From contig BPIQ01000001.1 of the NCBI GenBank assembly GCA_026004195.1, forward strand, positions 525,871-589,870: a DNA stretch of 64,000 bases, given 5' to 3'. Source of the DNA: Candidatus Binatia bacterium. Its GTDB lineage: Bacteria; Desulfobacterota; Binatia; HRBIN30; BPIQ01. Shown one piece after another: positions 35,754 through 60,662 of this stretch (positions within the stretch are counted from its first letter, which is position 1; each line of letters begins with the position of its first letter). Under the pieces are notes generated by a model that did not search any database, was not told the DNA's origin, and was given only the letters and a program-made list of their open reading frames with translations. The translations under genes and the position numbers were made by a program.

Positions 35754-37853
35754 ATGCGGCATCTGGCTCTCTGGTGGGGGCTGCTCGAAGCCCTGGGTCT
35801 TCTCGCCCTGCCCCTGGGCTTCCGCTACCTCTCCCCGAGCCTCGCCCACGGATACCCCTTCGCCAAAACGGCCGCGATCCTTTTCGTGACGGCCGTGTCC
35901 TGGGTGCTCGGGATGGCGGGCCTGCCCTTGCGGCTCGGGATCGCGACGGGCCTGGTTCTCCTCTTCGGCACGGGTGCGGCGGTGGCGTGGCAGCAGCGGA
36001 AGGAGCTCGTCGCCTGGCTCCGTCGAGGCGGCGTGCGCACGCTCCTCTGGCACGACGCGGTCTGGACCGGCGCCTTTCTGTTTTTCGCCTGGCAGCGTTC
36101 TCTCGCGCCGGACATTTTCGGGGCGGAAAAGTACATGGACTTCGCCTTCCTCAACGCCCTCGCCCGCGCCGACACGCTGCCTCCCCCGGATCCGTGGATG
36201 GCGACGAAGCCCTTCCACTACTACTACCTGGGCTACCTCTCCTTCGCCCACCTGGTGCGGCTTTCGGGGATCCCGCCGGCCGTCGCTTACAATCTCTGCA
36301 TCGCCACCGTGGCGGGTCTTTCCTTCGCGGCGTTCGTCGCGCTCGGGGAGCGCCTCGCCTCGACCCGCTCCGCCGGACTTCTCGCGGGCGCGATCGGCCT
36401 TCTTCTCGGAAACCTCGACGGTTTCCTCCAGTTCGCCGAACGAGGCCACCTGGTACCCATCGACTACTGGCGGTCCTCCCGGGTCGTGGGCCGCGGGGAC
36501 ACGATCAACGAATTTCCCTTCTTCAGCACGATCCACGGCGACCTCCACCCCCACTTCCAGGTGATGCCGGTCACGCTCTTTTTTCTCGCCCTTCTCCTCG
36601 ATCGGCGGCTCTTCGCCGAAAAGGAGCCCTACCGCTCCCGGCCGGGACTTTTCGCGCTCTGGTTCACGTTCACCTGCATGCTGGCATTCAGCCCCTGGGA
36701 GCTACCGGTGGGCGCCCTCACGATGGTGCTGCTTCTCCAGAGGTCCCTGCCCCTCTTCCCGCTCTTCTCCCGGGAAAGGCTTCTCTGCGTCGGCGCCGCT
36801 CTCGGGGTCGCCGCCGCGGCCTACCTCCCCCTCCGGCTCGGCTTCGAAACGCCGCCGCTCGGCGGCGTGGGCGTGAAGCTCGCCCGGACGAAGCTCTCGG
36901 AGTTTCTCACCGTTTTCGGCCATCTTCTGCTCCCGCTCGCCTGGGTACTCGCGCTCGAGATCTACCGGCGGGCGGAAGCGCTCCGTGCGGGACGGGATTT
37001 CCTGCTCGCCTCGGCGGCCCTGCTCGTGGCCGTGGGCGTTCTCGGGGGGAACGCCGTCCTCCCGCTTCTCGTCGTCCTTCTCCTCGCCGGACTGTTCGTC
37101 TGGCACGCGCGTCCCGAAGAATCGTGGCGGGCTCCCCTCGGGCTCGGGCTCGCGGCGCTCGCCGCGCTGCTCGCCTGCGAGGTGGTCTACCTCCGGGACT
37201 CCTACGGACTCCGCCTCTACCGGATGAACACGGTCTTCAAGCTCTACTTTCAGTCCTGGCTTCTCCTCTCGCCGGCCGCCGCGTGGGCCGTCCTCTCGCT
37301 CGCGCGGATCGATGCCCCACGGCTCCGGCAGGGGGCGCTCGCCGCGACCGCCGTGCTCTTTCTCGGCGCGTGCTTCTACCCGGTAGGCCTCACGCGCACG
37401 AGGCTCGGAAGTCCCTGGCCGCGCACGCTCGACGGCAACGCCTATCTCGCCCGCGAACACCCCGACGACTTCGCCGCGATCGAATGGCTCCGCGAAAACG
37501 TGCGGGGGCTTCCCGTCGTCCTCGAAGCCACGGGCGACCCCTACTCCTACTACGCCCGGATTTCGAGCAACACGGGGCTTCCGACCGTGATGGGATGGGC
37601 CAACCACGAGGGTCTCTGGCGCGGGCACGACCCGGACGTGGAGAAGGCCAGGAAGGACGTGCTACGCATCTACCAGGCCCCCACCCTCGGCGAGGTGGCT
37701 CCGCTCCTCGACGCCTACGGCGTTCGCTACGTCGTGGTCGGCGAACTCGAGCGCAAGGACTACGGGGAGGCGGGTCTCGCGAAGTTCCGCGAGCTTCCCG
37801 TCGCGTTCTCGCACGGGGGCACGACCGTCTACGAGTGGAGCCCGGGGTCCTGA
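35754..37853 (+). CDS. DUF2298 (Chlor_Arch_YYY) polytopic membrane protein
   Basis: 699 aa, many membrane helices. Family features are [17 protein letters not shown], the tyrosine run [40 protein letters not shown] and an exported C-terminal region with [10 protein letters not shown]. The family is GT-C-like, best known from Chloroflexi and Archaea, with no established reaction. The ATG is chosen over TTG 35697. It precedes a GT4 transferase by 4 nt. The same module recurs fused inside the protein at 39869-44644, so it is probably part of the same machinery. Confidence 0.88.
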
Positions 37854-37857
37854 GCCG

Positions 37858-39012
37858 GTGCGGATTCTCGTCGCCCTCACCTACTACCGCCCGCACGTGA
37901 GCGGGCTCACGATCTACGCGGAGCGGCTCGCGCGGGGACTCGCGCGCCGGGGACACGAAGTCACGGTCCTCACCTCGCGTTTTCACCCTCGCCTTCTCGC
38001 CTCCGAGAGGCTCGACGGCGTGAGGGTCGTTCGCGTCCCCGTGGTCGCCAAGGTGAGCAAGGGAGTCGTGATGCCGCTTTTCCCCCTGTACGCCCGGACG
38101 GAGATCCGGCGGCACGACCTCGTGAACGTCCACATGCCGCAGCTCGAAGCCGCGCTCCTCGCCGCGCTCGGCCGGCTCCACCGCAAGACCGTCGTCCTGA
38201 CCTACCAGTGCGACCTCCGTCTCCCCCCGGGTCTCTTGAACCGTATCGTCCAGGGCGCACTCGTACCCCTGAACCACCTGGCGGCGCGTCTGGCCCATCG
38301 GGTCACGGCCATGACCCGTGACTACGCGGACCACTCTCCTTTCCTGCGCCGCTACCAGGAGAAATTCCGCGTGACGCCCCCGCTCGTCGAGCTGCCGCCG
38401 CCACGGCCCGCGGTGACGGCGCGGTTCGTCGATCGGTACGGTCTCGCAGGGAGGCGGCGGATCGCCTTCGCCGCACGCTTCGCCGCGGAGAAGGGCGTCG
38501 AGATGCTTTTGCGGGCTCTTCCGAGGGTGGCGAGCGAAATCCCGGACGTTTGCGTCGTCTTCACCGGGGCCGCGCACGAGACCGTGGGCGAGCAAAAGTA
38601 CCACGAGAAACTTCGACCTTTGCTCGAAGAACAACGGGAGCGCCTTTTCTTCTTCGACCTCCTCTCGGCCGAAGAAATGGCGAGCTTTTTCGCCCTGGCC
38701 GACGTCCTCGCCGTCACGAGCCTCAACTCCACCGAGTCCTTCGGGCTCGTGCAGGCCGAAGCCATGCTCTCGGGGACTCCGGTCGTGGCGACGGACCTCC
38801 CGGGCGTGCGGGAGGCCGTGCGGCGGACCGGCATGGGGGAAATCGTACCGCCGGGGGATCCGGAGGCGCTGGCTCGGGCACTCCTGCGTGTTCTTCGGCA
38901 TCCCGAGCGGTACGTCCGCCCCCGCGAGGAGATTCTCCGCACCTTCTCCGTCGACGAAGCGCTCGACCGCGTCGAGGAAGTGTTCCGGGACGCTTCCCAC
39001 GAGACACCGTGA
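37858..39012 (+). CDS. GT4 family glycosyltransferase
   Basis: 384 aa, GTG start. GT-B fold: N-terminal LVALTYYRPHVSGLTIYAERLARGL split by Gly-rich loop, C-terminal donor site with FAARFAAEKGVEMLLRAL and the E-x7-E motif ESFGLVQAEAM, then GTPVVATDLPGVREAV. It should add a sugar from an NDP-sugar to a lipid-linked or soluble acceptor on the cytosolic face. It is coupled to the following methyltransferase by GTGA. Confidence 0.92.
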   Translation: MRILVALTYYRPHVSGLTIYAERLARGLARRGHEVTVLTSRFHPRLLASERLDGVRVVRVPVVAKVSKGVVMPLFPLYARTEIRRHDLVNVHMPQLEAALLAALGRLHRKTVVLTYQCDLRLPPGLLNRIVQGALVPLNHLAARLAHRVTAMTRDYADHSPFLRRYQEKFRVTPPLVELPPPRPAVTARFVDRYGLAGRRRIAFAARFAAEKGVEMLLRALPRVASEIPDVCVVFTGAAHETVGEQKYHEKLRPLLEEQRERLFFFDLLSAEEMASFFALADVLAVTSLNSTESFGLVQAEAMLSGTPVVATDLPGVREAVRRTGMGEIVPPGDPEALARALLRVLRHPERYVRPREEILRTFSVDEALDRVEEVFRDASHETP

Positions 39013-39740
39013 CGGGCGACGTTTTCGACGAACGTTACTTTCGCGAACGCGGAGACCGGATCGCGCTCTGGTACTACGCCCGTGTCGTCCGCCACCTCGC
39101 TCCGCGGGGAGGGAAGCTTCTCGACTTCGGCTGCGGCACGGGGCATTTCCTCCGCCGGCTCGAGCCCCACTTCGAAACCTACGCTTTCGATCCCTCCCCC
39201 GCGGCTCGCGCGGAGACGCGAAAAAACGCGTCCGAGACCACGCTGCTCGACGACTGGCGGGAGCTTCCGCCCGCCTTCCTCGACGTCGTGACCGCACTCC
39301 ACTCGCTCGAGCACCTCTCCGAGCCGGGAGAGGTCCTCGGGGGTCTCGCGGCCAGACTCCGTCCCGGCGGCCTCTTTTTCGCGGTGGTACCCAACCCCGA
39401 AGGACTCGGAGCCCGGCTCAAGGGAGACCGCTGGTTCGGCTTCCGGGATCCCACCCACCTCCAGCTTCTCCCCCGGGCGCAGTGGGAAGAGCTTTTCCGG
39501 CTGGCCGGGCTCGCGGTGCGGCGAGTTCGGGGCGACGGAATGTGGGACGCGCCCTACGTCCGGGGGCTTCCCGTCTTCTTCCAGAAGCTCGTTTTCGGCC
39601 TGCCGGCGGGCCTGCAGGTTTTTTCCCCCTTCCCCCGGCTCTTCCTCCCGCCCCTCCTCGGGGAATGCCTGGTGATCGAAGCCAGGAGAGAAGCCGATCC
39701 GTCGGCGGAGTCCTCCCGTGCTCCCGAACCGCATGCGTGA
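39009..39740 (+). CDS. Class I SAM-dependent methyltransferase
   Basis: 243 aa, GTG in GTGA overlap. Motif I is LLDFGCGTGHFLRRL; the acidic loop is YAFDPSPAAR; DVVTALHSLEHLSEPGEVL and LRPGGLFFAVVPNP match Methyltransf_11/23-type enzymes. Position after a GT4 enzyme suggests methylation of a glycan or lipid intermediate, but the substrate cannot be read from sequence. Confidence 0.88.
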   Translation: MTGDVFDERYFRERGDRIALWYYARVVRHLAPRGGKLLDFGCGTGHFLRRLEPHFETYAFDPSPAARAETRKNASETTLLDDWRELPPAFLDVVTALHSLEHLSEPGEVLGGLAARLRPGGLFFAVVPNPEGLGARLKGDRWFGFRDPTHLQLLPRAQWEELFRLAGLAVRRVRGDGMWDAPYVRGLPVFFQKLVFGLPAGLQVFSPFPRLFLPPLLGECLVIEARREADPSAESSRAPEPHA

Positions 39741-39849: not shown

Positions 39850-39868
39850 TCCTCTCCCCGACCGGTCC

Positions 39869-42800
39869 ATGCGCTACGATTCGAGGCGTTTTCGCTGGGT
39901 CCTCCTCCTGCTTTTCTCCGCGGCCCTTGCCGTCCGACTCTTCCGCCTCGACTGGGACCAGTACCACTTCTTCCACCCGGACGAGCGCGCCGTCGCCTAC
40001 GCGATCCAGCGGCTTTCCTTCCGCCCGCTCCAGTTGAACCCCCAGTTTTTCGCCTACGGGTCTTTTCCCTTTTACGTGACGAAGGCCGCGACGAGCCTCC
40101 TCGGCCTCCTCGACCCCTGGTACCGCGGCTACGACGGGACGATCATGACCGGCCGGGCGATCTCCGCTCTCTGGGGAGCTGCCACGTGCGTGCTTCTGGC
40201 CCTGTTCGGCCGCCGGCTCTACGAGCCGCGGGTCGGACTCCTCGCGGGCTTCTACCTCGCCTTTTCCGTCTTTCACCTCCAGAACTCGCACTTCGCGACG
40301 AACGACATCCCGCTCACCTTTCTCGTTCTCCTGGCCCTCTACGCCCTTTCGGCCGCGGCCGAATCGGGAAGCCCCCGGAGCTTTCTTCTGGCCGGAGCCT
40401 CCGTGGGACTCGCCGTCGCGACGAAATTCAGCGCCATGCCCGTGCTCCTTCCCCTCGGCGTGGCGGTCCTCGTCCGGATGTTTCGTGAGGGGACGCTCGC
40501 ACGACCTCTCGGTCTCGGCGCGGCGTCGTTCGGCGTCGCCCTCGCCACGTTCGCGCTCGGGCAGCCTTACGCGATTCTCGACTACCGATCCTACGTCCAC
40601 GACATCCTCGAGCAGAGTCGGATGGTGCGGAACGCGGGGCTCTTCCCCTACACGAACCAGTACATCGGGACGCCGAAATACCTCTACGAGCTGCGGGAGC
40701 TCGTGCTCTGGGGAATGGGCCCCTGCCTCGGTCTCGCCGCCGTGGCCGGCACCCTCGTCCGACTCGGCCGCAGAATCGGGACGGGGGAGTTGCTTCTTCT
40801 CTCGTGGGTCCTGCCCTACTTCGTGATCAGCGGGTCCTTCGACGTGAAGTTCCCGCGCTATCTCCTCCCGATCTACCCCTTTCTCTGCCTCTGGGCCGCG
40901 AAGCTCGTCGTGGACCTCTCGCGGGCGAGACCGCTCCTGGGACGTCTCGTATCCCTTGCGGTGTCGGTCGGCACGCTCCTTTACGCCGCGGCCTTTCTCT
41001 CGATCTACACCCGGCCCCACACGGTCGTACGCGCCTCGGAGTGGTTCTACGCGAACGTTCCCCGCGGCTCGAAGGTCCTGACGCAGCACTGGGACGAAGG
41101 TTTCCCGATGCCCCTTCCCGGCAGAAGCCCGAGCCACTACACGATCGTCCCGCTTCCTTACTACGAGCCGGACTCGCCCTCGAAAATCGCTTCGATCGCC
41201 CGGGAGCTCGCCACGGCCGACTACCTCGTCTTCCAGACCAAACGGCTCTACGGTGCCGTCACGCGGGCGCCGGAGAAATTTCCGCTGACGAACAACCTCT
41301 TCTACGAGCTTTTTGCGGGCGACCTGGGCTACGTGCTCGTCCGCGAGTTCGCCTCCCGTCCGGGTCTTTTCGGCATCGAGCTTCCTTCCGAGCTCGCGGA
41401 CGAGTCGTTTTCCGTTTACGACCACCCGAAGGTGCTCGTCTTCAAGAACGAAGGGCGGCTTTCGGCCGAGGAGATCCAGCGGAAGGTGCTCCACGGGGTA
41501 CCGTCCCGGCCGCTCGCACGGCGGGACCTGCTTCTCGCGAGCCCGAAAGGCGAGAGCCCTCTTTCCGGGCGAGAGACCGAGTGGGTCCGCTCCTCGTGGG
41601 TCGCGCTCCTTCTCTGGGTCTCGTTCCTCGAGGTGCTGGGGCTCGCGGCCTACGCGCTTCTCCGCGGACCGCTCGCCGGGAGGCCGGGCCTCTACGCCCT
41701 CGGGAAGCCCGTCGGGTTTCTCGTCTTTTCCTACCTGCCGTGGCTTTTCGCCGGGATCGGCTGGCTTCCCTTCACCCGAGGCTCCGCCCTCGGGGCGTTC
41801 ATCGTCCTCGCGCTCGCAGGGCTCCGGGCTTTTCTCCGGACTCGCGACTTCCCTTTTCCGCGGCGCGAAGCGTGGGCCACCGAAATTCTCTTCTGGTCGG
41901 TCTTCGCTTTCTTTCTCACCGTGCGCGCCTTCAACCCGGAGATCTACTGGGGCGAGAAGCCCATGGACTTCTCGTTCCTGAACGCGATGTACCGCACGGT
42001 TTCCCTCCCACCGCCGGAACCGTGGTTCGCGGGCTCGGCGCTGCACTACACGTACTTCGGCTACTTCGCCGTCGCCGCTCTCGGCAAGGCGACCACCGTG
42101 CACCCTGCCCTCGCGTTCAACCTGGCGATCGGTAGCACGGCAGCGCTCACGGCTTCGGGTGTCCTCGGAGCCGGCACGCTCCTCGCCCGCGCGTGGCCCG
42201 CCGGTGTTCTCGCGGCCGTGCTCGCCGTGATCGCGGGGAACCTCGCGGGACTCCGCGAGTACCTGGCTCGCGGCGTCGTGAACTTCGACTACTACTGGGC
42301 CACCTCGCGTGTCATCCGCGACACGATCAACGAGTTCCCTCTCTGGACGTTCCTTTTCGCGGATCTCCACGCGCACATGATGGTCATGCCGTTCACGATG
42401 GCCTTCACGGGGCTTCTCTTCGCCTGGACCCGCAGGGCCGAGCGCCCCTCCGACCACGTGCCGCTCCTTTCCGCACCCGTCCTGCTCGTTCTCCTCTCGC
42501 TTTCGCTCGGGGCCGTCATGATGACGAACGGCTGGAGCACGCCCACGTACGTGACCCTCCTTCCCTGGGTTCTTTTCGTCCACTGGGTGGGCCATGTCCG
42601 CGCCGAGGGAGTGTTCCGTCGCCTCGCGAGCTTCGCGGGCCGCGTCGTCCTGCCCACGGCGACCGTCCTCGCCGGCGCTCTCGTTTTCCTGCGTCCCTTC
42701 TACTGGCACTACACGCCCCCGGAAATCCACTGGGGATGGGAACACGTACAGTTCGCGAGACCGTACGATTTCTTCACCATTTTCGGCCTCTTTCTCGTCC

Positions 42801-44644
42801 TCGTCCTACCGTCGTTTTTCGTCCTCTGGTCGAGACTCCTGCGCGGGGAGGCGCCTCGGCTCTCCCGCACGCGTGCGCTCGCGATCGGTCTCGTCGCCTC
42901 GGGTCTTCTTCTGTCTCTTTTCGACCTCGAGGCCCTCGCCTCTCTCCGAATCGTGGAGGCGCGCTCGATTCGGATTTTTGCCGCGCTTTCCGCACTGCTC
43001 GGTGTTTTCGTGGCCCTCCACCCGAGGACCGAGCGCGCATGGCGGTTGCCGACGGCCCTCGGAGCTTTCGCCCTCGCGGTCACGGCGGGCTGCGACGTCG
43101 TGTACGTCTGGGACCGGATGAACACGGTCTTCAAGTTCTACCTGGAATCCTGGTTTCTCTTCGCCCTGGCTTCGGGCGCCGTGCTCCGGGCTCTCGTCCG
43201 TGGCGAACTCGGGCGAGGGGCGCCCCGGGCGCTGTGGCTCGCCGTGCTCGGCGTCGCGTCGGTGCTCTCGCTCTTCACGACGGTGACGGACGTGGTGGGC
43301 ATCCTGCGCACGCGGCGGGTCGAGACGCCGCGCCCCACGCTCGACGGCACGGCGTACCTGCGGCTCAAGAGCCCCGAGGAGTACGCGGCTTTCGAGTGGC
43401 TCAACCGCAACGTCCGCGGCATCCCCGTCATCGTGGAAGCGTACGGCCCGTCCTACCAGGAGTACACGCGCGTGAGCATGAACACCGGACTGCCGACGGT
43501 CCTGGGCTGGGACTACCACGTCTACCAGCGGGCCCATCCCTGGCACGAGATCAACCGCCGGAAGGCGGACATCGAAGCCGTCTACACTTCCGACCTCGAG
43601 GCCAAGGTCGCGAGCATCCTCGACCGCTACAAGGTCTCGCTCGTCTACGTAGGGCCGCTCGAGCGCCGCACGTACGCGGGGGCGAACCTCCGGAACTTCC
43701 GAGCCTGGAAGAACACGCTGACCCCGGTCTACGAAAACCCGGGCGTGACGATCTTCGCCGTGAACGGCCGGTTCGCCGGCGGCGTGCCCGTGACCCACAT
43801 CGAGGAGATCGCCGCCGTGGGAGAAGAAGCGGAGCCAGAGCCCCCCGGTTTTCTCCAGCAACCTCGGGGCGTCGCCGTCGACGCCCAGGGCTTCGCCTAC
43901 GTCTGCGACTTCGGAAACAACCGGATCCAGAAGTTCGATCCTACCCTCGAATCCGCCCGGGCCTGGGGAGGTCGCGGCGAGTTGCCGGGAGAGTTCAAGG
44001 ATCCGTGCGGCGTGGACCTGGGTCCCGACGGCAACGTGTACGTCGCCGACACGTGGAACCAGCGTATCCAGGTCTTCGACCCCGAAGGGAACTACCTGCG
44101 CGAATTCGGTGAGGGCTTCTACGGTCCCCGCGGCGTCGCCGTCGACCCCGGCACCGGACAGGTGTTCGTCGCGGACACCGGAAACCACCGCGTCGTCCGG
44201 TACACGCCCGACGGGCGTAAAGCGGGCGAGTGGGGAGGCCGCGGCGAGGCTCCCGGGAAGTTCTTCGAGCCCGTGGGGATCGACGTCTCGGCCTCGGGAG
44301 AAGTCTACGTCTGCGACAACGGGAACGCCCGCGTCCAGGTTTTCAGCCGCGAGGGGCAGTTCCTGCGGAGCTTTCCCGTGCCGGGTTGGCGGAGCGAGGT
44401 CTTCTCCGAACCGAACGTGGCCGTGGACGAAAGCCGGGGGCGTGTATGGGTCACCGTTCCGCTCGAAGGCGAAATCCGCGCGTACACGCCGGAGGGAAAG
44501 CTCGTCGCTACGATTCGTGGGGACGACGTCCCCGGCGCCCGTTTCGAGAAGCCCATGGGGATTGCCGTGGCTCCGGACGGAAGCCTCGTGGTGACGGACC
44601 TCGAGCACCGCGTCCTTCGCGTGCCTCATGCAACGGGTGGCTGA
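39869..44644 (+). CDS. Giant fusion: PMT-like GT-C, DUF2298 and NHL beta-propeller
   Basis: 1591 aa. Residues ~1-570 are a PMT-like GT-C unit: first-loop acidic motif FFHPDERAVAYAI, then many helices and an exported region ending ~570 (ASEWFYANVPRGSKVL). Residues ~690-1290 repeat the DUF2298 module (YWGEKPMDFSFLNAMYR, LHYTYFGYFAV, DTINEFPLWTFLFADLHAH, NTVFKFYLESW). Residues ~1324-1591 form about six NHL repeats (PRGVAVDAQGFAYVCDFGNN, VYVADTWNQRIQVF, VFVADTGNHRVVRY). GT-C enzymes transfer sugars from polyprenyl-phosphate donors on the outer membrane face. Two catalytic-type modules plus a propeller in one chain suggest a self-contained glycosylation unit. Each module is clear; activity is unproven. 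Confidence 0.9.
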   Translation: MRYDSRRFRWVLLLLFSAALAVRLFRLDWDQYHFFHPDERAVAYAIQRLSFRPLQLNPQFFAYGSFPFYVTKAATSLLGLLDPWYRGYDGTIMTGRAISALWGAATCVLLALFGRRLYEPRVGLLAGFYLAFSVFHLQNSHFATNDIPLTFLVLLALYALSAAAESGSPRSFLLAGASVGLAVATKFSAMPVLLPLGVAVLVRMFREGTLARPLGLGAASFGVALATFALGQPYAILDYRSYVHDILEQSRMVRNAGLFPYTNQYIGTPKYLYELRELVLWGMGPCLGLAAVAGTLVRLGRRIGTGELLLLSWVLPYFVISGSFDVKFPRYLLPIYPFLCLWAAKLVVDLSRARPLLGRLVSLAVSVGTLLYAAAFLSIYTRPHTVVRASEWFYANVPRGSKVLTQHWDEGFPMPLPGRSPSHYTIVPLPYYEPDSPSKIASIARELATADYLVFQTKRLYGAVTRAPEKFPLTNNLFYELFAGDLGYVLVREFASRPGLFGIELPSELADESFSVYDHPKVLVFKNEGRLSAEEIQRKVLHGVPSRPLARRDLLLASPKGESPLSGRETEWVRSSWVALLLWVSFLEVLGLAAYALLRGPLAGRPGLYALGKPVGFLVFSYLPWLFAGIGWLPFTRGSALGAFIVLALAGLRAFLRTRDFPFPRREAWATEILFWSVFAFFLTVRAFNPEIYWGEKPMDFSFLNAMYRTVSLPPPEPWFAGSALHYTYFGYFAVAALGKATTVHPALAFNLAIGSTAALTASGVLGAGTLLARAWPAGVLAAVLAVIAGNLAGLREYLARGVVNFDYYWATSRVIRDTINEFPLWTFLFADLHAHMMVMPFTMAFTGLLFAWTRRAERPSDHVPLLSAPVLLVLLSLSLGAVMMTNGWSTPTYVTLLPWVLFVHWVGHVRAEGVFRRLASFAGRVVLPTATVLAGALVFLRPFYWHYTPPEIHWGWEHVQFARPYDFFTIFGLFLVLVLPSFFVLWSRLLRGEAPRLSRTRALAIGLVASGLLLSLFDLEALASLRIVEARSIRIFAALSALLGVFVALHPRTERAWRLPTALGAFALAVTAGCDVVYVWDRMNTVFKFYLESWFLFALASGAVLRALVRGELGRGAPRALWLAVLGVASVLSLFTTVTDVVGILRTRRVETPRPTLDGTAYLRLKSPEEYAAFEWLNRNVRGIPVIVEAYGPSYQEYTRVSMNTGLPTVLGWDYHVYQRAHPWHEINRRKADIEAVYTSDLEAKVASILDRYKVSLVYVGPLERRTYAGANLRNFRAWKNTLTPVYENPGVTIFAVNGRFAGGVPVTHIEEIAAVGEEAEPEPPGFLQQPRGVAVDAQGFAYVCDFGNNRIQKFDPTLESARAWGGRGELPGEFKDPCGVDLGPDGNVYVADTWNQRIQVFDPEGNYLREFGEGFYGPRGVAVDPGTGQVFVADTGNHRVVRYTPDGRKAGEWGGRGEAPGKFFEPVGIDVSASGEVYVCDNGNARVQVFSREGQFLRSFPVPGWRSEVFSEPNVAVDESRGRVWVTVPLEGEIRAYTPEGKLVATIRGDDVPGARFEKPMGIAVAPDGSLVVTDLEHRVLRVPHATGG

Positions 44645-47186
44645 TCCGCGTTTTCGTCTCGTGCTCCTCCTTCTGGCCGCCCTCGGTGCGGCCCTCGGCC
44701 TCCGGGCCGAGCCCTGGAGCCGCGACTTTCTCGCCTGCTGGGCCCTCGCGTTCGCGACCTTCGGCGCTCTTCTTGCGACGGACCCGGGACCGGAACTCCC
44801 GGGAAAGGAAAACCCGCCTCTCCCCGGCGAGTGGCTCCTCGCCGCTCTCGTCCTGGCCTCGGGCGTTTTCTTTCGCGTCTTCCGCCTCGACCTGATCCCT
44901 TCGGGCCTCAACCACGACGCCGCCTGGAACGGCCTCTACGCGCTTCGCATTCTGCGCGGGGAGCCTTACACGCCCTACGTCGCGGAAGCGTGGGGGCGGG
45001 AGACGCTGATGCATTACATCCAGGCAGCGTTTCTCTACTTCACCGGGCCGAGTCTCTGGGGAGTCGTCTTCGCGGCCGTTTTCGTCGGCGTCGTCCTCCT
45101 GCCCTTCGAGTACCTCTGGCTCCGGGAGATGTTCGGCACGAGGGCCGCGCTCGTCGGAACGTTCCTTCTCGGCACCTCGGGCTGGCACATCGTGCTGAGT
45201 CGGGTCGGATGGCGGGCGATCACGCTTCCGACGGTGGCGGCCATGGCGTGCTTCTTTTTCTGGCACGCGCTCGAGCGGCGGAAACTCGCGAGCTACGCGC
45301 TCGCCGGCGCCGCCGTCGCAGGGACGGTGTACACCTACAACGCGGGACGCATTTTTCCGCCGTTTTTCGCCCTTTTCTGCCTTTTCCTCCTCGCGCGGAA
45401 AAAGACCCGCAGGACCCACGGACGGGGCCTTGCGGTCCTCGGCGTGGCGTTCGCCCTTTTCGTCTTCCCCATGGCGCACTACGCAGCCACGCACTGGATC
45501 CAGTGGCAGGGACGGGCCGTGGCGGCTTTCCACGAGCGAAAAGGTCTTTTCGAGAACCTGCGAGCTGCCCTCCTTCTCTACGGCTATTCGGGCAACGGAG
45601 ACGACTTTTTCGTCGAGGAGCCGCTCCTCGAGGCGCCGGCGGCCGCCGCTCTCGCCTTCGGCCTCCTCTGGTCGCTCCGGCGGCTCCGCGACCCTCGGGC
45701 GTCGTTCCTTCTCCTGGGCCTTTTCCTCTGCCACGTGCCGGGTGTGCTGAGTCGGCCGAACGGGAATCGGGCGATCGGCACGCTTCCTTTCGTCTACGCC
45801 TTCTGCGCCCTCGGCGTCGCGTACTTCGAGAAGGAAATCCGGCGAGCGTTCCCGCGGCTCCGGCCGCTCGCCCCGGCGCTCGTGCTCTCCTTTCTCGCGC
45901 TCTCCGCCGCAGCCACGTACGAGCAGTACTTCGGGCCGCGCCGGCGTGACATCTTCGGCTTCTACCCCGAAACGACCTCGCTGGGCCTTTACATGAAATC
46001 CATCTTGCCGCGCTACACGGTCTGGGTCGGCGGGGCGAACTTCCCCCGGGATACGCTCACCTTCCTCACGTACTCCGGGGAGGGCCACCCCGAGGAACGC
46101 CGCTACCGCTGGGTCGACGACGTGACGGCCCTTCCGCGGATGGAACTCCTGCCGGAACCCGGAAAGGGTGTCGCCGTGATCCTGCCGACCACGGGCCCCG
46201 GCGCTCTCGCCTTCGAGGAGCTCCGGGAACGATTTCCCGAACACGAGGTCGAAGAGCTCCGCTGCGCGGCGCTGGGGGACCGGGTTTTCGCGAAAGCGCT
46301 GCTGGTCCCCCGCGAAGCCGTCGAGAAACAGATCCTCCCGCCGGCCGCGCTCGAGAAGCGAGGAGATCGGCCACCCGTTCTCCTTGCCGCGGCGACGCGC
46401 GGCAGCGGGTGGGGCCAGTTCCTCGACCCGAAAAACGTGGCCGTGGGGCCGAACGGCGAGCTTTACGTGGCCGACACGGGAAACCACCGCGTGCAGAAAT
46501 TCTCCCCGGATCTTCTTCTCGAAAGGGTCTGGGGCAAGCAGGGGGCCGCGGACGGGCGCTTCCACGAGCCCAACGCACTCGCCGTGGACTCCCGCGGCCT
46601 CGTCCACGTCGTCGACACCTGGAACCAGCGCGTCCAGGTCTTCGACTCCGAAGGAAGGTTCCTGCGCGCCTACAAGAGACCGCGTGGATTTTTCGGACCC
46701 CGCGGCATCGCCATCGCGCAGGGCCGCGTCTACGTGACCGACGGCGGCAACAGCCTCGTCGTCGTCTTCGACGAGGAGGGGAAGTTCGTCTTCGAGTTCG
46801 GCGGCAAGGGGAGCGAGCCGGGAAAGCTCCTCCAGCCCGTCGGGATCGCCGTGACACCGTCGGAGAAGATCTGGGTCGTCGACAGCAGCAACAACCGCGT
46901 CCAGATCTTCGACCGGCACGGCAAGCCTCTCGCCGCGATTCCCGTGCCGGGCTGGCAGGGGGACGCCCTCAAGGAAGCGTATCTCGCCGCGGCGGGAGAC
47001 GACGCGGTGTTCCTCACGGACCCGGTGGGACGCAGGCTCCTGCGCATCGAGGAAAACGGCAGCGTCGAGGTCGTGCGTTCGGACCTCGAGGGACCGGCGG
47101 GGGTCGCCGTCCGGGGCGACGAGTGCTTCGTGACGCAACGAGGCCCGGCCCGCGTGGTTCGCTTCCGCTGCCGGGAAAAAGCGTGA
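44628..47186 (+). CDS. PMT-like GT-C protein with C-terminal NHL propeller
   Basis: 852 aa; overlaps the fusion gene by 17 nt. Residues ~1-460 are membrane-spanning with the first-loop Asp in SGLNHDAAWNGLYALR and HIVLSRVGWRAITLPT typical of PMT_2 proteins. Residues ~470-580 are a soluble domain, and ~590-852 are six NHL repeats (DPKNVAVGPNGELYVADTGN, VHVVDTWNQRVQVF). Blade 5 has the insert IPVPGWQGDALKEAY, matching the related proteins. The propeller should lie outside the cytoplasm and may bind the acceptor polymer or partner proteins. Confidence 0.88.
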   Translation: MQRVADPRFRLVLLLLAALGAALGLRAEPWSRDFLACWALAFATFGALLATDPGPELPGKENPPLPGEWLLAALVLASGVFFRVFRLDLIPSGLNHDAAWNGLYALRILRGEPYTPYVAEAWGRETLMHYIQAAFLYFTGPSLWGVVFAAVFVGVVLLPFEYLWLREMFGTRAALVGTFLLGTSGWHIVLSRVGWRAITLPTVAAMACFFFWHALERRKLASYALAGAAVAGTVYTYNAGRIFPPFFALFCLFLLARKKTRRTHGRGLAVLGVAFALFVFPMAHYAATHWIQWQGRAVAAFHERKGLFENLRAALLLYGYSGNGDDFFVEEPLLEAPAAAALAFGLLWSLRRLRDPRASFLLLGLFLCHVPGVLSRPNGNRAIGTLPFVYAFCALGVAYFEKEIRRAFPRLRPLAPALVLSFLALSAAATYEQYFGPRRRDIFGFYPETTSLGLYMKSILPRYTVWVGGANFPRDTLTFLTYSGEGHPEERRYRWVDDVTALPRMELLPEPGKGVAVILPTTGPGALAFEELRERFPEHEVEELRCAALGDRVFAKALLVPREAVEKQILPPAALEKRGDRPPVLLAAATRGSGWGQFLDPKNVAVGPNGELYVADTGNHRVQKFSPDLLLERVWGKQGAADGRFHEPNALAVDSRGLVHVVDTWNQRVQVFDSEGRFLRAYKRPRGFFGPRGIAIAQGRVYVTDGGNSLVVVFDEEGKFVFEFGGKGSEPGKLLQPVGIAVTPSEKIWVVDSSNNRVQIFDRHGKPLAAIPVPGWQGDALKEAYLAAAGDDAVFLTDPVGRRLLRIEENGSVEVVRSDLEGPAGVAVRGDECFVTQRGPARVVRFRCREKA

Positions 47187-47196
47187 GGTGGGCAAG

Positions 47197-49653
47197 GTGA
47201 AGGCTTTCCGCATCCTCCGACGCCTTCTCGGGTTTCTCGCCCTCGGAGGTGCCGCTTACGCGCAGTACGGAATCCGGGTTTCTCCGGCCGACTCCGGGGC
47301 GACGGCGCTGTTTCTCTTGTGCGCGGCTCTCGCGGCTCTCGCCTTCGGTTTCGAGGGCGAGACCCGGGAAAAGCTGCCTTCTTTTCCCGACCGGTCTCGC
47401 ACCCGTGCGGCGCTGGCCGGTATTCTCGTGGCGCTCGGTTTTCTCGCGCTCGGCACGGGTGCCGCGCTGCTCTCGCTCGACTGGCGCAGGTGGTTTTTCG
47501 CGGGCTGGGCTCTCTACCTCGCCGCCGCGCTCGTCTCGTCCTCGGGCCTCGGGCTCCTCGACCCGCCGAAGACCGGGGAGCGCCGCTGGACGAGAAGCGA
47601 GGCTTTTCTTCTCCTCGGTATTTTCGCGCTCGGCACCTGGCTTCGCTTCCACCGGTACGCGGAGTTCCCCCCGCCCTACTCCGCGCACGCGGTCGAGGAA
47701 CCGCAGACGGGAATGGGCGGCTACAACATCCTGGTCTTCGGGACGCGCCCCTGGGAGTTCTTCCTGGACCACTGGGCCGCAGCGGCCGCCCTAGCTTTCG
47801 CCGAAAAGCCGAACTTCACGGTCCTGCGCGTCCCCTTCACGATCGCGAGCGCACTCACGATCCTGCCGCTGCACGTCCTGCTGCGACAGGTCGTCGGCAC
47901 CCCGGCGGCACTGGCCGGCACGTTCTTTTTCGCCGTCTCGAGCTGGAACGTCATCTACAGCCGCTGCGCCCACAACATTTTTCTCCCGAACCTTCTCGTC
48001 GTCACGGCCTTCGCCCTCGCGCTCTACTTCCGGCGGACCTACCGGCTTCGGGCCGTTCCCTGGCTCGCGCTCCTTTCCGGGTACACGCTCTACGCCTACG
48101 CCGGCTACCGGGGGACGAGTCTTTTCGTTTTTCTCTTTCTCGCGGGAGGCGCGCTTTCCGACCTGCGAAAGCTCGGCCTCCGGGCGGGGCGGAGCATTCT
48201 GCGACGTGATTTGGCGGCACTTACCGTCTTTCTCGTCTTCGTCCTCGGCGTCGCGGCCCCTCTCGTCCCGATCAACCGCTCGAACCCCGCACAGCCGCTC
48301 TACTACTTCGAAGCCGCCCGCCGCTCGCTCGCGAACCGCGAGTACTACACGAGCGACCCCCGGGCGTTCGTGGCCCAGAGGGTGCGGCGCATCCGTGAGA
48401 CGGCTGCCATTTTCCTCCACCGGGGCGACGACTCGCCTACCTTCAACGCTCCGAACGAACCCATGGTGGACCCCGTGACGGGGGTCTTTTTCGTGCCCGG
48501 GCTTTTCGTCGCGCTTTTTTTCGTGCGCCGGCGCTTTCACGCCTTCCTCCTCTTTCTTTTCGTGGCGCTGCTTCTCGGCGGAGCCGTCTTCGTCCAGAAC
48601 CTCGACGTCCGCCGCCTCCAGGGGGTCACGCCCTTCGTCGCGGCTCTGGCCGCCCTTTTTCTCGACCGGGTGGACGGGGCGTTGCGCAGCCTTCCGCGAA
48701 GCGCCCGGAGCGCGGCCTATCTTCTTTTTCTCCCCGTCGCTGCCTTCTCCCTCTTCTGGAACTACGACGTCCACTTCCGGAAGATGGCCCGCGACCCCCG
48801 CGTGCGGGCGGCGTTCCAGAACCGCTACACGGTGCTCGTCCGCTACGGCCACACGGAGGGAGCGGGCCGGGAAATCCTGCTTCTCTCCGAAGTGCGGAAC
48901 TTTTTCACGCCTTCGGACTACTGGTGGCTCGTACGCGACCACATTCCCGGACGGAACCTCGCGGACGTGACGGAACTTCTCGCGCCCGGAGCGTTGCGTT
49001 CCCGGAGCGGAAAACCGGTCTCCGTCGTCGTCCAGGACCCCTTCGAGCGCAAGGCCGTGGCCGAGCTTCTGCGGGCTGCTTATCCCGGCACCGTTTGCCG
49101 GGAGATCACCGACCCGGACAACGCCCACCTCGTTCTCACGGCGTGCGACCTGCCCTCCGATCTGGTCGCGCCGCGCGTCGAGCCTCGGCTCCGGGCCCGC
49201 TACTGGGTCGACGGCCGCGGAGAGGGCCCGCCCGCTCTCGAGAGGCTCGAGCCCATGATCGCCTTCGCGGGCACGCCGCCTCTCTGCTACTCGGGGCCGA
49301 GGCCGGGGGAAAGCGAGAACTGTCTCGCGGAGTGGGAAGGAGAGATCGAAGTTCCCGAACCCTCGCAGTTCGCCCTGGCGCTGCGGGCCGGACGGCTCCT
49401 CGAGGCTTGGGCCGACGGCGAGCGGCTCTGGGTTCGCGGAAGGATCTTTTCTCTTCCGGCCGGCCGGCACCGCGTCGTTCTGCGGGCGGAATTCCCCCGG
49501 GGCGGAGAAAACGGTGCGCAACTTCTCCGGCTACGCATGCCGGAGAACGAGGTCGTCGAGTTCTACGGGGTGGCGGGCCCTGCTTTTCCGGGTGGGCTCG
49601 AGGGAGAAACCGAAGGCGCCTACCATGCGGCCCGCGCGCACCGCCCGGGTTGA
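47197..49653 (+). CDS. GT-C-like membrane protein with C-terminal beta-sandwich-like domain
   Basis: 818 aa from GTG 47197, chosen because GAGG lies eight bases before it; GTG 47188 is alternative. Many helices to ~520, with SRCAHNIFLPNLLVVT and YTLYAYAGYRGTS typical of PMT_2-like proteins; the first loop has EEPQTGMGGYNIL. The exported C-terminus (~660-790) contains RARYWVDG, EWEGEIEVPEPSQFALALRA and LPAGRHRVVLRAEF, a PA14/carbohydrate-binding-like pattern. It lacks NHL repeats, unlike the two genes before it. Confidence 0.83.
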   Translation: MKAFRILRRLLGFLALGGAAYAQYGIRVSPADSGATALFLLCAALAALAFGFEGETREKLPSFPDRSRTRAALAGILVALGFLALGTGAALLSLDWRRWFFAGWALYLAAALVSSSGLGLLDPPKTGERRWTRSEAFLLLGIFALGTWLRFHRYAEFPPPYSAHAVEEPQTGMGGYNILVFGTRPWEFFLDHWAAAAALAFAEKPNFTVLRVPFTIASALTILPLHVLLRQVVGTPAALAGTFFFAVSSWNVIYSRCAHNIFLPNLLVVTAFALALYFRRTYRLRAVPWLALLSGYTLYAYAGYRGTSLFVFLFLAGGALSDLRKLGLRAGRSILRRDLAALTVFLVFVLGVAAPLVPINRSNPAQPLYYFEAARRSLANREYYTSDPRAFVAQRVRRIRETAAIFLHRGDDSPTFNAPNEPMVDPVTGVFFVPGLFVALFFVRRRFHAFLLFLFVALLLGGAVFVQNLDVRRLQGVTPFVAALAALFLDRVDGALRSLPRSARSAAYLLFLPVAAFSLFWNYDVHFRKMARDPRVRAAFQNRYTVLVRYGHTEGAGREILLLSEVRNFFTPSDYWWLVRDHIPGRNLADVTELLAPGALRSRSGKPVSVVVQDPFERKAVAELLRAAYPGTVCREITDPDNAHLVLTACDLPSDLVAPRVEPRLRARYWVDGRGEGPPALERLEPMIAFAGTPPLCYSGPRPGESENCLAEWEGEIEVPEPSQFALALRAGRLLEAWADGERLWVRGRIFSLPAGRHRVVLRAEFPRGGENGAQLLRLRMPENEVVEFYGVAGPAFPGGLEGETEGAYHAARAHRPG

Positions 49654-49716
49654 CGCCACGGGGGCACCGTGTTTCGTTCGCACCTTTGGACCGACTCTTA
49701 CCGGGAGGTGTCTTGC

Positions 49717-50781
49717 GTGCAGACTAACGTTTTCGTGTCGCTGGCAATTACCCTGTTTTTGGCGCTTCCCGCTCCGTCGTCGGCCCGGCTACGCCTCTTC
49801 GTGCCCAACTCCGGGGACGACACAGTGTCCGTCATCGACGGAGACGAGGACCGCGAAGTCGCGGTTCTCGAAGTGGGCGCCATGCCGCAGGCCGTGGCCC
49901 TCCGCCCCGACCCGCCACTTCTCGCCGTCGCGAACTCGAGAGGAAATTCCGTGACCCTCGTCGATCCGGTCGAGTTGCGAGTACTCGGCGACCCGATTCC
50001 CGCTGGACGCTTCCCGGTCCATCTCACCTTCTCGGCAGACGGCCGTTTTCTTTTCTCTTCGGCCTACGACGACGACGCCGTCCACGTCATCGACGTGGTA
50101 GCGCGCACTCTCTCCGGCGATCCGATTCGCCTGCCCGCCCGCGCGAGACGCCTTCTGCTGACCCCTCGGAACGAGCTGCTCGCCCTCGTCTATGCCGAAA
50201 ACGGGGTTCTCGCTCTTCTCGACCTCGAAAAACGCGTCGTGGCGAAAACCGTCGGGGTCGGCAAGGCCCCCACGGACCTCGTTCTCGCACCGGACGGAAA
50301 GCACATCTGGGTCGCCGCTTTCCAGAGCGACACTCTGAGCCTGGTCGACCTAGAGACGTTCCGGGTCCGAAAGACCTTCGACGCGAGCGTCGGCAACGGC
50401 CTCGTGCTCGACCCGTTCCGTCACCTGCTCTACTCCATCGATACGTTCGAAAATCGTGTGTGGGTCTTCGACTACGAAAAGGGAGAGCATGCGGGGGACA
50501 TTCCGGTGGGCGAGGACCCCGTGTACAGCGCGATGACCCCCGACGGGAGATACCTTTACGTCGTCAACAGCACGGACGGAAACCTGACCAAGGTCGACCT
50601 CGAGAGCCGAAAATTCCTCCGCAGGATCGCCGTCGGTACGGAGCCCATCGGGATTGTCGTCTTCGAACTTCCGCGAGCGCCGTACAGGGGAATTCTGACG
50701 GCCTTGGCCGCCGCGGTGGTAATACTCTTTCTTTTCGGCGTCGGCCTCCGAGGTGTCCGAAAGCGGAAGAAGAGGCACTGA
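49717..50781 (+). CDS. YVTN-type beta-propeller, membrane-anchored
   Basis: 354 aa. GTG 49717 is chosen because GGGAGGTG ends six bases before it. Signal peptide (VSLAITLFLALPAPSSA) then about seven propeller blades with recurrent VSVIDGDEDREVAVLEVG, VTLVDP, YVVNSTDGNLTKVDLES and IPVGEDPVYS patterns, a C-terminal membrane helix (about 318-340) and a basic tail RKRKKRH. The propeller faces the periplasm or exterior. It closes the plus-strand glycosylation run and may interact with the NHL proteins. Confidence 0.85.
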   Translation: MQTNVFVSLAITLFLALPAPSSARLRLFVPNSGDDTVSVIDGDEDREVAVLEVGAMPQAVALRPDPPLLAVANSRGNSVTLVDPVELRVLGDPIPAGRFPVHLTFSADGRFLFSSAYDDDAVHVIDVVARTLSGDPIRLPARARRLLLTPRNELLALVYAENGVLALLDLEKRVVAKTVGVGKAPTDLVLAPDGKHIWVAAFQSDTLSLVDLETFRVRKTFDASVGNGLVLDPFRHLLYSIDTFENRVWVFDYEKGEHAGDIPVGEDPVYSAMTPDGRYLYVVNSTDGNLTKVDLESRKFLRRIAVGTEPIGIVVFELPRAPYRGILTALAAAVVILFLFGVGLRGVRKRKKRH

Positions 50782-57106: not shown

Positions 57107-59773
57107 TCAGCGCTCCACCCAGCCCGGAGCCTCGAGCGCCGCCACGATCTCGGGCGTCATCTGCTCGAAGGCGGCCGTGTCCCGGTAGTCCTTCACCATG
57201 AACCAGGCGTTCGGATGCCCGCCCGTCGGCACGACGCGCAACTCGACGGGCCTCCCCGGCTCGACTTCCGAAGCCGGCAGGACGAGGACGAAAACGCCGG
57301 ATTTCCCGGCGACGAGCTGCTTTCCGCGGAAAAAGAGGCGGTAGCCCCCGCGCTCCCATTTCCGCGCGTCGAAATCGATTCCCAGGTCGAATTCCAGCGC
57401 GTACTTGCCGTCGACCCAGAGCTCCGCGCGCCCGGATTCCTCCCCCATCGAGGCCGTGAAGACGAACGCCGTCGTTTTCTTGGCCGGTACCGGCGCCGTG
57501 CGCCACACCACCTCGGCCTGCGCATCCCGCTCGTACGTCCACCACGAACGCGTGCCTCCGCGGTAATCCGGATAGGATTCCTGGGTGTGAACGAAGCGGA
57601 CGATCTCCGCGAAGCCCTCCACGACCTCGAGCTCCTCGGCCCGCGTCCGCTCCGCGGGAGGCGGAGGCGGTACGCTCGCGGGAATCTCGGCCACGTAGCG
57701 CAAGTCCTCGAAGTCCCTTCCGTCGAGATCCGTAAGCCGCGCGACGAAATACCATCCTCCCACGATCTCGCAACTTTTCACGAGAAGCACGTTCCGTCCC
57801 TCGCGGAGCGCGACCTCCCTCGTCTTCGGGCGCTCCCCGAAACGCTCGGGCACCGGAGTCAAGAGCTCCCCGTTGAGCCAGACCTTTCCCGGGTCTTCCG
57901 AGCCCCACATCTCGAGGAGCGCAGGCCGTGCCGTGGGCGCCTCCACCGTCGTGAGCGCGTAGGCGCACGCGTACTCGGGGTTCCCCGGGTGGTCGCGGTC
58001 CTGCCACGCGAAAAATACGTTGAGGTCGACGCGGATGAACTGCGGCGAGATGCGGCGCCAGAAAACCGGGCCGTACTTCCCGGGGTACTGCTTTTTTTCG
58101 ATGGCAGCGACGTCCAGGAACTCCCGGTGGAGACCCTGCCCCCCGCGGTTGTCGAAGGGCCCGAGAACCATCCAGTCCGTGATGTAGTTCTTCCTCTTCC
58201 GCACCTCCGCGATCACGAACTCCACCTGTCCCCCGGGCGCCACGACCTCCTTCAGGACGTCGTAGTCCGAAAAATACTGGAGGTCCGAAGGCCGGAGCGA
58301 GTAGAGGATCCGCCGGTCCATCGAATAGCGACGGTATTCGCTCGGGTCGAGGACAAGGTAGCCAGGGTCGTGGGTTCTCGCGAACTCCCGGGGGTCCTTG
58401 CGCGTGTAGAAAAGCGCGAAGATGTAAGGCTGGTTCACTTCCGTGGCCGTCAGCATCAGGAGGTCGTAGTCCTTGCGGCGCGGCTCCATGAACTCGATCA
58501 CTTCCCGGTAGCCGTACTGGAAGCCTCCGTACGTCGGAGCCGAGTACTTCACGTACTCGCGGAAGTAGAGGTGCAGGTAGCGGGCGATCTCGGGGTAGGC
58601 CGCGGAAGCGAGCCCGACGAGACCGAGCGCCTGGAGCGAAAGGGCAAGGGAGCGGCGCCGGCCGATCCATCCGATCGCACGGAAAAAAGCCCCGATTCCG
58701 GCGGCCGTGACGAGGCAGAACGCCGGCGCCCCGATGAAGCCCCGCGAGGCGCTCGGAATCTCCGTCATGAGCGCCGCCCCTGCCGGGTAGAGGGCGAGCC
58801 ACCAGAGGACGAGCTTCGTTGCCCGGTCGCGCCGGAAGAGCAGCACGAGCAGACCCAGGAGAAGGAACGGAAGAAAAAAGGGATAGAGCTCGCCGTGCCC
58901 GCGAACCGCGTGGCGGACGATCGGGTCTCCCGCCTCGAAGAGAAACCGGGGGGAGAAAAACTCCGCGTAGTTCCGGGCGTAGATCCGCAAGAACTCTTCC
59001 CACCCGAGACCGGGCCGCAGGATCGTCGTGTTGTAGAAGTAGTTCATCCCGCGCCTGTGCGTGAGATCGAACCAGACCACGGGCGCGGCCGTAAGAAGAA
59101 GCACCGGCACGGCCACGAGCCACTCCTTCGGGCGCCGCCAGAGCGTGGGCAGGTAGAGAAGACCGAAGCCCAGGAGGAAGAGCGGCACGAAAAGCTTCGA
59201 GATCGCGTACGCGTAGGGGCAGGCGGCGAGAAAGAAGAACGCGAGCGGCAGCGTCTTTCTGCCTTGCGCGAAGCGGACGAGAAACACGAAGCCGAGGACG
59301 AAAAGAAAAGGAAAGGAGACGAGTTCGAAGGCGATCCGGCTGAAGTGGAGGTGCCAGGGCACGATCGCGAGCAGCGCGGCGAACCAGAGCCCCACCCACG
59401 TCCCCAGGAGCGCGCGCCCGAGAAAAAAGGCGGCCGCTACCGTGCCCGTCCCGAAGAGCGCCGAAGGAAGACGGGTCGTGAACTCGTCGAGGCCCAGGAG
59501 CCGGATGGGAATCGCGGCGGCGTAGATGAAGACGGGGTTTTTGTATCCTCCGAACGACCAGACGAAAAGCGGCCACCGCACGCCGTTCTCGTCGATTCCG
59601 TAGTGCGCGATGGCCCAGGCGTTGTAGCCGAGCGCCGCCTCGTCGCAGAAGAGGCCCGCCGGGAGGTCGCGGAGGTCGTGGACGCGCAACGCGAGCGCCA
59701 GGGTCACGATGGCGGCGAAAAGAACCCAGTGGGGTCGCCGCGTCTCCTCGCTCGGCCGAGCCTTCGCCCCCAT
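57107..59773 (-). CDS. PMT-like GT-C protein with exported beta-sandwich-like C-terminus
   Basis: 888 aa. Residues ~1-400 are membrane-spanning with first-loop FCDEAALGYNAWAIAHYG, then FSFIAFELV-type helix region and RGMNYFYNTTIL. The exported C-terminus holds two unrecognised all-beta parts: one with WMVLGPFDNRGGQG and WLNGELLTPVP (~530-680), and one with FVFTASMGEESGRAELWVDG (~740-860), resembling PA14- or carbohydrate-binding sandwiches. It is 13 nt after a GT2 gene. Confidence 0.85.
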   Translation of the reverse strand: MGAKARPSEETRRPHWVLFAAIVTLALALRVHDLRDLPAGLFCDEAALGYNAWAIAHYGIDENGVRWPLFVWSFGGYKNPVFIYAAAIPIRLLGLDEFTTRLPSALFGTGTVAAAFFLGRALLGTWVGLWFAALLAIVPWHLHFSRIAFELVSFPFLFVLGFVFLVRFAQGRKTLPLAFFFLAACPYAYAISKLFVPLFLLGFGLLYLPTLWRRPKEWLVAVPVLLLTAAPVVWFDLTHRRGMNYFYNTTILRPGLGWEEFLRIYARNYAEFFSPRFLFEAGDPIVRHAVRGHGELYPFFLPFLLLGLLVLLFRRDRATKLVLWWLALYPAGAALMTEIPSASRGFIGAPAFCLVTAAGIGAFFRAIGWIGRRRSLALSLQALGLVGLASAAYPEIARYLHLYFREYVKYSAPTYGGFQYGYREVIEFMEPRRKDYDLLMLTATEVNQPYIFALFYTRKDPREFARTHDPGYLVLDPSEYRRYSMDRRILYSLRPSDLQYFSDYDVLKEVVAPGGQVEFVIAEVRKRKNYITDWMVLGPFDNRGGQGLHREFLDVAAIEKKQYPGKYGPVFWRRISPQFIRVDLNVFFAWQDRDHPGNPEYACAYALTTVEAPTARPALLEMWGSEDPGKVWLNGELLTPVPERFGERPKTREVALREGRNVLLVKSCEIVGGWYFVARLTDLDGRDFEDLRYVAEIPASVPPPPPAERTRAEELEVVEGFAEIVRFVHTQESYPDYRGGTRSWWTYERDAQAEVVWRTAPVPAKKTTAFVFTASMGEESGRAELWVDGKYALEFDLGIDFDARKWERGGYRLFFRGKQLVAGKSGVFVLVLPASEVEPGRPVELRVVPTGGHPNAWFMVKDYRDTAAFEQMTPEIVAALEAPGWVER

Positions 59774-59786: not shown

Positions 59787-60548
59787 TCACGCCCGGCGCT
59801 CGGCCCTCCCGCCGAGACTCCGCAAAGCCAGGAGTCCGTACCCGCAAATCGTCCGCACGGGCCTCATCTTGCTCGTGCCCGCCTTCCAGTCGTAGCGCAG
59901 GACGAAGGGAATCTCGCAACACCGGGCACCGACCAGGTGGAGCTTCCAGAGAAGCTCGGCCGTGCAGATGAAGCCCCAGCCGCGGAGGGAAAGAAGTTCG
60001 TTTTCGAACCGGAAGACCGCGCGTCGCAGAACCTCGACGCGCACGGCCCGGTAGCCGCAGGCGTAATCCCGGACGCCCGGAATCCGAAGGAAAAGCCGCA
60101 GGAGAGCGTTCGCCCCCCGACTGAAAAGCTCGCGGTGCGCGGGCACGCCCACCACCTCGGCACCCGGTCGAAAGCGGGAAGCCACGACGACGTCGCAGCC
60201 GGCTTCGATCCGCTCGAGCATCGCGGGGACGTAAGCCGGGTCGTGCGTATCGTCGGCGTCCATCGTGACGAGGACGTCCTCGTCCGACGCGCGATCCGCC
60301 ACCCACTCGAGACCGTCGCGCAAGGTTTCCGCGAGCCCCCGGTTGAAGCGGTGCCGGAGGATCTCGAGCGGCATTCGGGCCGCTTCCTCGCGCAGGATGT
60401 CCTGGCTTCCGTCGCGACTTCCGTCGTCGACGGCGAGGACGCGGTACGGAATCCCGGCCCCCTCGCAGGTCTCCCGGATTCGCCGCAGCAGCGACGGGAG
60501 TCCGGATGCTTCGTTGTAGACCGGGAGGAGAAACAAGACGCGGCGCAT
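59787..60548 (-). CDS. GT2 glycosyltransferase
   Basis: 253 aa. VLFLLPVYNEASGLPSLL, LAVDDGSRDGSQDIL, acidic motif VTMDADDTHDP and VASRFRPGAEVVGVP match dolichyl-phosphate-sugar synthase-like GT2 enzymes. No C-terminal membrane tail, unlike the enzyme at 56175-57104. First gene of the five-gene minus-strand operon ending at 53271; likely makes the lipid-linked donor for the GT-C protein next to it. Confidence 0.9.
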   Translation of the reverse strand: MRRVLFLLPVYNEASGLPSLLRRIRETCEGAGIPYRVLAVDDGSRDGSQDILREEAARMPLEILRHRFNRGLAETLRDGLEWVADRASDEDVLVTMDADDTHDPAYVPAMLERIEAGCDVVVASRFRPGAEVVGVPAHRELFSRGANALLRLFLRIPGVRDYACGYRAVRVEVLRRAVFRFENELLSLRGWGFICTAELLWKLHLVGARCCEIPFVLRYDWKAGTSKMRPVRTICGYGLLALRSLGGRAERRA

Positions 60549-60621: not shown

Positions 60622-60662
60622 GCTCGAACTCCTCGGTGCGGGCTCCGAACCGTCCAGACCGT

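Follow-up and report, generated by a model that had tools for sequence, protein, structure and literature searches.

A gene on the forward strand of the window (39869–44644; the window being the whole 64,000-nucleotide stretch of Candidatus Binatia genome analysed) encodes a single 1591-residue chain with three modules: a PMT-type GT-C unit (aa 1–541), a Chlor_Arch_YYY/DUF2298 unit (aa 577–1298) and an NHL propeller (aa 1323–1589). The sequence-only reading had described such a single chain of PMT, DUF2298 and NHL, and the open frame together with Pfam and NCBIfam matches bears this out. We interpret the protein as a tandem extracytoplasmic glycosyltransferase that would use polyprenyl-phosphate sugars, a reading to which we assign a probability of about 0.55.

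The fusion is genuine and not a mis-assembly. Translation of 39869–44644 gives one uninterrupted frame of 1591 codons, and the check for internal stops suggested in the sequence-only reading found none. Third-codon-position GC stays at 0.76–0.93 per 300-base step from 39788 to 44587, both module borders included, and changes before 39869 and beyond 44588, at the start of the next gene, with which the fusion gene overlaps by 17 bases (44628–47186). The upstream part of the fusion frame looks non-coding, so 39869 is taken as the correct start; a longer gene beginning at GTG 38888 was rejected because codon-position GC upstream of 39869 fits another frame, which is occupied there by a methyltransferase-like gene. 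All 15 genomes examined from the source order carry the protein, 14 of them with PMT and YYY in one open frame (in one of the 14 the frame ends within NHL at a contig end); G357, the remaining genome, has the gene divided between contigs. In these genomes identity is 54–58% where a single alignment covers most of the protein. An assembly artefact, or a chance run-on of separate genes, is thus contradicted by recurrence within the order, by the even codon-position GC along the gene and by PMT-YYY fusions in related loci elsewhere; no point in its favour was found, and we regard its probability as negligible. Two overlapping AlphaFold models were of high confidence (aa 1–1200, mean pLDDT 90.1, pTM 0.72; aa 392–1591, pLDDT 90.9, pTM 0.81).

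The PMT half (39869..41491) is predicted to adopt a GT-C fold, with about 11 transmembrane (TM) helices and an extracytoplasmic soluble domain in the AlphaFold model. PMT_2 (PF13231) matches aa 95–224 with 61.2 bits (Pfam, gathering cut-off 26.1), and the top fold matches are AglB, STT3 and Pmt4: model residues 10–530 match AglB 3waj with Z 30.4 (rmsd 7.0, 436 aligned), Pmt4 9i5l follows with Z 29.5 (rmsd 3.4, 377 aligned) and ArnT 5f15 scores Z 27.2. The half therefore resembles the GT-C(A) enzymes AglB/STT3, PMT and ArnT in fold (Z 27–30) and also in the acidic pair that precedes the first outer helix, but identity is 11–18%, and in the fusion the chain continues with another, unlike unit and a propeller. 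The acidic pair lies in an HPDE motif (aa 36–39, 39974..39985) in the first extracytoplasmic loop, picked out by conservation as the putative GT-C catalytic acids; D38 and E39 are present in 72/72 sequences that cover it. In the model, HPDE sits at the start of helix 37–47, after TM 5–24; GT-C(A) enzymes have their essential aspartate at this position, where the first juxtamembrane helix has its tip (PMC12041299). A near-invariant W408-[D/E]409 pair occurs in the soluble domain past the last TM helix of this half. Assignment of the half to Agl23 was rejected (TIGR03663, 40.4 bits; cut-off 126), and Pfam returned no STT3-family match in the fusion protein, so that its resemblance to STT3/AglB is one of fold alone.

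The middle unit (41597..43762) is a full-length member of its family over both cut-offs: TIGR03662 Chlor_Arch_YYY covers aa 577–1298 at model positions 2–726 of 727 (475 bits, cut-off 300; NCBIfam), and DUF2298 (PF10060) covers aa 619–1098 at positions 1–488 of 488 (299 bits, cut-off 27.8; Pfam). The models show three additional N-terminal TM helices, then the core and then a soluble domain, and the family motifs YxYxG (aromatic), DLHxH and RMNTxFK are all present. Conservation singles out DLHAH at the extracytoplasmic end of a TM helix (aa 832–836, 42362..42376), with D832, H834 and H836 in 76/76 fused proteins, and RMNTVFK at the extracytoplasmic start of another (aa 1083–1089, 43115..43135), with R1083, N1085 and K1089 in 72/72 covering fused sequences and 25/25 stand-alone proteins. 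By conservation and secondary structure, a third motif, GEKPMD (aa 695–700, 41951..41968), is the positional counterpart of HPDE: in the model the local order of TM 665–688, GEKPMD and a short helix at 699–709 mirrors that of TM 5–24, HPDE and helix 37–47. E696 is kept in 74/76 fused and 25/25 stand-alone proteins and position 700 is D or E in 74/76 fused proteins; two fused homologues lack the 696/700 acidic pair in the alignment, possibly through a misaligned loop. Because both halves have retained their acidic motifs, it is unlikely that either is a dead remnant.

A remote relation between the two halves is also detectable by profile comparison, in which the YYY-half profile matched the PMT-half profile with P 5.7e-6 over 245 columns; nine controls (one reversed and eight block-shuffled) all gave P 0.01 or worse. 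Alignment with hhalign of YYY to Agl23, to the neighbouring PMT-NHL protein and to an 821-aa membrane protein of the same gene run gave no signal. In fold searches with the two models, matches to the PMT half and to NHL took up the lists entirely, so the lack of YYY matches there carries no information. Against PDB sequences the YYY family profile gave nothing significant; the weak best match, for the soluble domain, was 3vu0 (E 0.49), an AglB C-terminal domain from an archaeon. Among open-access PubMed Central papers we found no demonstrated activity for any TIGR03662 member and no functional work on DUF2298.

These matches bear on the acceptor. The chain may glycosylate exported proteins, in the manner of an oligosaccharyltransferase or protein O-mannosyltransferase and with NHL recognizing the protein, instead of building a polysaccharide; this is compatible with tandem transfer, and we consider it possible though rather unlikely. 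AglB, STT3 and Pmt4 as best fold matches, the near-invariant W408-[D/E]409 of the PMT soluble domain and the 3vu0 match of the YYY soluble domain all speak for a protein acceptor, but the 3vu0 match is not significant, Pfam gives PMT/PMT_2 and no STT3 family, and ArnT, an enzyme with a lipid acceptor, has almost the same score.

The propeller (43835..44635) is a six-bladed extracytoplasmic beta-propeller by fold match and by Pfam, with Z 39.0 and rmsd 1.6 over 257 residues to the TRIM3 NHL structure 7qrw and 126 bits to the NHL repeats (PF01436). Topology derived from the models groups NHL and both soluble domains on the same side of the membrane as the four motifs HPDE, GEKPMD, DLHxH and RMNTxFK. 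With loops assigned from the model helices, K/R density is 13/69 in inner loops and 16/213 in short outer loops, which supports the motif and NHL side as the outside. Elsewhere, genes of one cassette can have NHL tails that are closest to one another: in L122 the NHL of the fusion forms a sister pair with that of PMT-NHL (99/98 support), and a neighbouring gene supplies the partner of the fusion NHL in L047 (98/93). In the NHL tree, these two loci point to exchange or conversion between neighbouring genes.

The fusion gene is part of a same-strand run (35754–50781) that begins with a full-length stand-alone Chlor_Arch_YYY (DUF2298) gene (35754..37853, forward strand; TIGR03662, 485 bits). Next come a GT4-type cytoplasmic glycosyltransferase (37858..39012, +; Pfam Glycos_transf_1) and a class I SAM-dependent methyltransferase-like gene (38997..39731, +) with a start tentatively placed at about 38997, an open frame and weak NCBIfam methyltransferase matches. 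The fusion is followed by a second GT-C-type protein with PMT_2 and a C-terminal NHL (44628..47186, +), by the 821-aa membrane protein (47188..49653, +), for which there is no Pfam match and which hhalign relates remotely to the PMT half (P 4.5e-13), and finally by a secreted YVTN-type beta-propeller with a C-terminal TM anchor (49669..50781, +; profile match and sequence). The order YYY, GT4, methyltransferase-like gene, fusion and PMT-NHL is maintained in several members of the order. Divergent from the stand-alone YYY gene lies an FAD amine-oxidase-like gene (34267–35697, −; PRK07233 type, 473 bits), homologues of which also lie close to the cassette of L125 and to that of the Chloroflexota locus L037.

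A second cluster contains a PMT-like GT-C protein (57107..59773, −; profile comparison and conservation), a GT2 that is a candidate polyprenyl-phosphate-sugar synthase (59787..60548, −; weak, sub-cut-off matches to models of dolichyl-phosphate hexose transferase and PpgS), an Agl23-family protein with a C-terminal NHL (60636..63353, +; TIGR03663, 318 bits, cut-off 126) and a second GT2 (63350..63997, −) that is weakly AglJ- or dolichyl-phosphate hexose transferase-like, has sub-cut-off matches and runs toward the window end. The Agl23-NHL protein, a putative lipid-linked-sugar flippase, starts at GTG 60636 or possibly at ATG 60663. Both GT2 genes and Agl23 lie 15–19 kb from the fusion gene. 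The stretch separating the two clusters encodes, at 53331–54257 (−) and 50879–52883 (−), Cys-rich proteins of secreted type in which 'CGNGVVEGGEECETDADC' is repeated in tandem, together with related proteins that look exported; there is no Pfam match, and they are possible glycosylation substrates. A further membrane protein, at 54472–56514, likewise lacks a Pfam match and is GT-C-like by the look of its sequence only. No 16S rRNA match was found in the source assembly (98.9% complete, 6 contigs).

Co-occurrence ties the DUF2298 family to Agl23. Any DUF2298 match is present in 20 of 148 genomes of the class and TIGR03663 exceeds its cut-off in 16; a strong full-length DUF2298 occurs in precisely these 16, which are G368 and the 15 members of the order (Fisher P 4e-18, the genomes being related and so not independent events). 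Within the phylum sample, all four Agl23 genomes also have YYY. The genes are adjacent in G290 (stand-alone YYY, PMT-YYY and Agl23) and in G015 (YYY and Agl23), and in distant phyla DUF2298/YYY and the PMT unit are neighbours, with Agl23 adjacent or near. The fusion links DUF2298 to a surface glycosylation chemistry also found in archaea. That the fusion marks a shared process, as the sequence-only reading had argued from the joining of modules, holds more through neighbourhood and co-occurrence than through fusion alone.

The same association leaves room for a different role of the YYY half. Only the PMT half might be a transferase, with YYY moving or presenting the lipid-linked donor or acceptor as a flippase, scramblase or scaffold and so coupling flipping to transfer; we judge this unlikely. 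YYY is only remotely related to GT-C, and its top-conserved motifs, DLHxH and RMNTxFK, are to our knowledge not among the standard GT-C motifs. Its genomic partner Agl23 has a PMT-like membrane part, and the purified Haloarcula hispanica member flips lipid-linked oligosaccharide in liposomes (PMC11182771), so GT-C-like sequence is no proof of transferase activity. The acidic motif at the expected GT-C position, with E696 almost always retained, points the other way, and genomes with YYY also have a separate Agl23, which is the better flippase candidate.

The fused architecture is old and widespread. In a wider-phylum sample the protein is rare, with matches in 2 of 297 genomes at E 1e-100, one being the source genome and the other carrying a 1294-codon frame too short for the NHL tail. 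Among the matches listed from named genomes, at least 79 distinct loci were kept, with at least 76 fused PMT-YYY proteins, mostly from Chloroflexota. A database search for the same three-module order, as proposed in the sequence-only reading, did recover it: at least nine of the fused proteins among the matches listed carry an NHL tail (L007, L009–L014, L046 and L047), and these come from Acidobacteriota, Binatia, Schekmanbacteria and related records. PMT-YYY thus represents the general architecture and the NHL tail the restricted part, and the fusion does not qualify as a rare joining event. A Chloroflexota locus (L057:9695–17020) shows a further fusion step, with PMT-YYY-YYY in one frame of 2441 aa.

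A tree of 85 YYY units separates fused from stand-alone forms with two label changes (shuffled mean 21.8; 0 of 500 shuffles as low as two), and the two YYY units of the window fall in different groups. The stand-alone gene at 35754–37853 is therefore an ancient paralogue of the fused half, and its candidacy as a recent-duplication source was rejected by the tree. The fused PMT half and the neighbouring PMT at 44628–47186 are related only at profile level. Separate modules do lie nearby, as the sequence-only reading had pointed out (35754–37853, 44628–47186 and 60663–63353), but the fused parts do not derive from them, the YYY there being an ancient paralogue and the PMT a remote homologue. In Ktedonobacter and Thermosporothrix (L032, L040 and L055), two neighbouring genes in the same frame encode PMT and YYY separately, and YYY groups with the stand-alone units beside L048, which has both forms. 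That these loci preserve a pre-fusion state is doubtful given this grouping; loss of a fused YYY half fits better, as the tree suggests.

Returning to tandem transfer, we propose that GT2 enzymes would load polyprenyl phosphate with sugar on the inner face and that the Agl23-family protein would flip this donor to the outer face. The PMT half would then take the sugar from the polyprenyl-phosphate donor, with the HPDE acid pair as its probable catalytic centre, and the YYY half, as a further and divergent unit of GT-C-like type that has GEKPMD for an acidic motif, would most likely carry out another transfer to the glycan under construction or pass the acceptor on. The outer NHL propeller may dock the acceptor or the NHL-tailed partners PMT-NHL and Agl23-NHL. 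What the analysis establishes is the architecture and its conservation, the folds predicted for the PMT half and the propeller, the conserved motifs, a topology that fits the outer face, and co-occurrence with Agl23; enzymatic activity of each half, the sugar, the acceptor and the part played by the propeller are inferences. Action of the two GT-C units in tandem on one substrate, already raised in the sequence-only reading, would be consistent with acidic motifs kept on the same membrane side in both halves. Paired GT-C enzymes working side by side are known from Pmt1–Pmt2 and EmbA–EmbB, both of which were among the fold matches, although those are separate chains of one family and the fusion joins two distantly related units in one chain. 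The proposed route follows the established extracytoplasmic scheme of GT2, flippase and GT-C (PMC11127046), with the same logic as three-component systems (GtrABC type; GT136, PMC11127046) that combine a polyprenyl-phosphate-sugar synthase (GT2), a flippase and a GT-C transferase. It differs from these systems in that the flippase candidate of the window is Agl23-like, not GtrA/SMR/MATE, and in that several GT-C proteins are present.

The domain family, its multi-domain forms and its association with Agl23 are already known at the database level: the NCBI description of TIGR03662 includes members with additional N-terminal sequence and with YYY in two copies, from which the chain in the window differs in ending in an NHL propeller. 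Among open-access papers we found none describing PMT-YYY-NHL, and no account of how the form with the NHL tail is conserved across the order in Binatia or of the profile link between YYY and PMT. As a bolder and rather improbable extension, DUF2298/YYY might constitute a new GT-C-type transferase family and PMT-YYY a two-active-site enzyme for consecutive extracytoplasmic transfers; the Agl23-dependent system to which it belongs would be common to archaea, Chloroflexota, Acidobacteriota and Binatia, and its enzymes would be held in one complex by the NHL propellers of the fusion, of PMT-NHL and of Agl23. Lasting fusion to a GT-C transferase and near-perfect co-occurrence with Agl23, a family with a flippase assay, place the widespread, uncharacterized DUF2298 family in a hypothetical pathway that can be tested in both bacteria and archaea, and two different GT-C-type units per chain, if true, would be a useful model for the coupling of lipid-linked sugar transfers.
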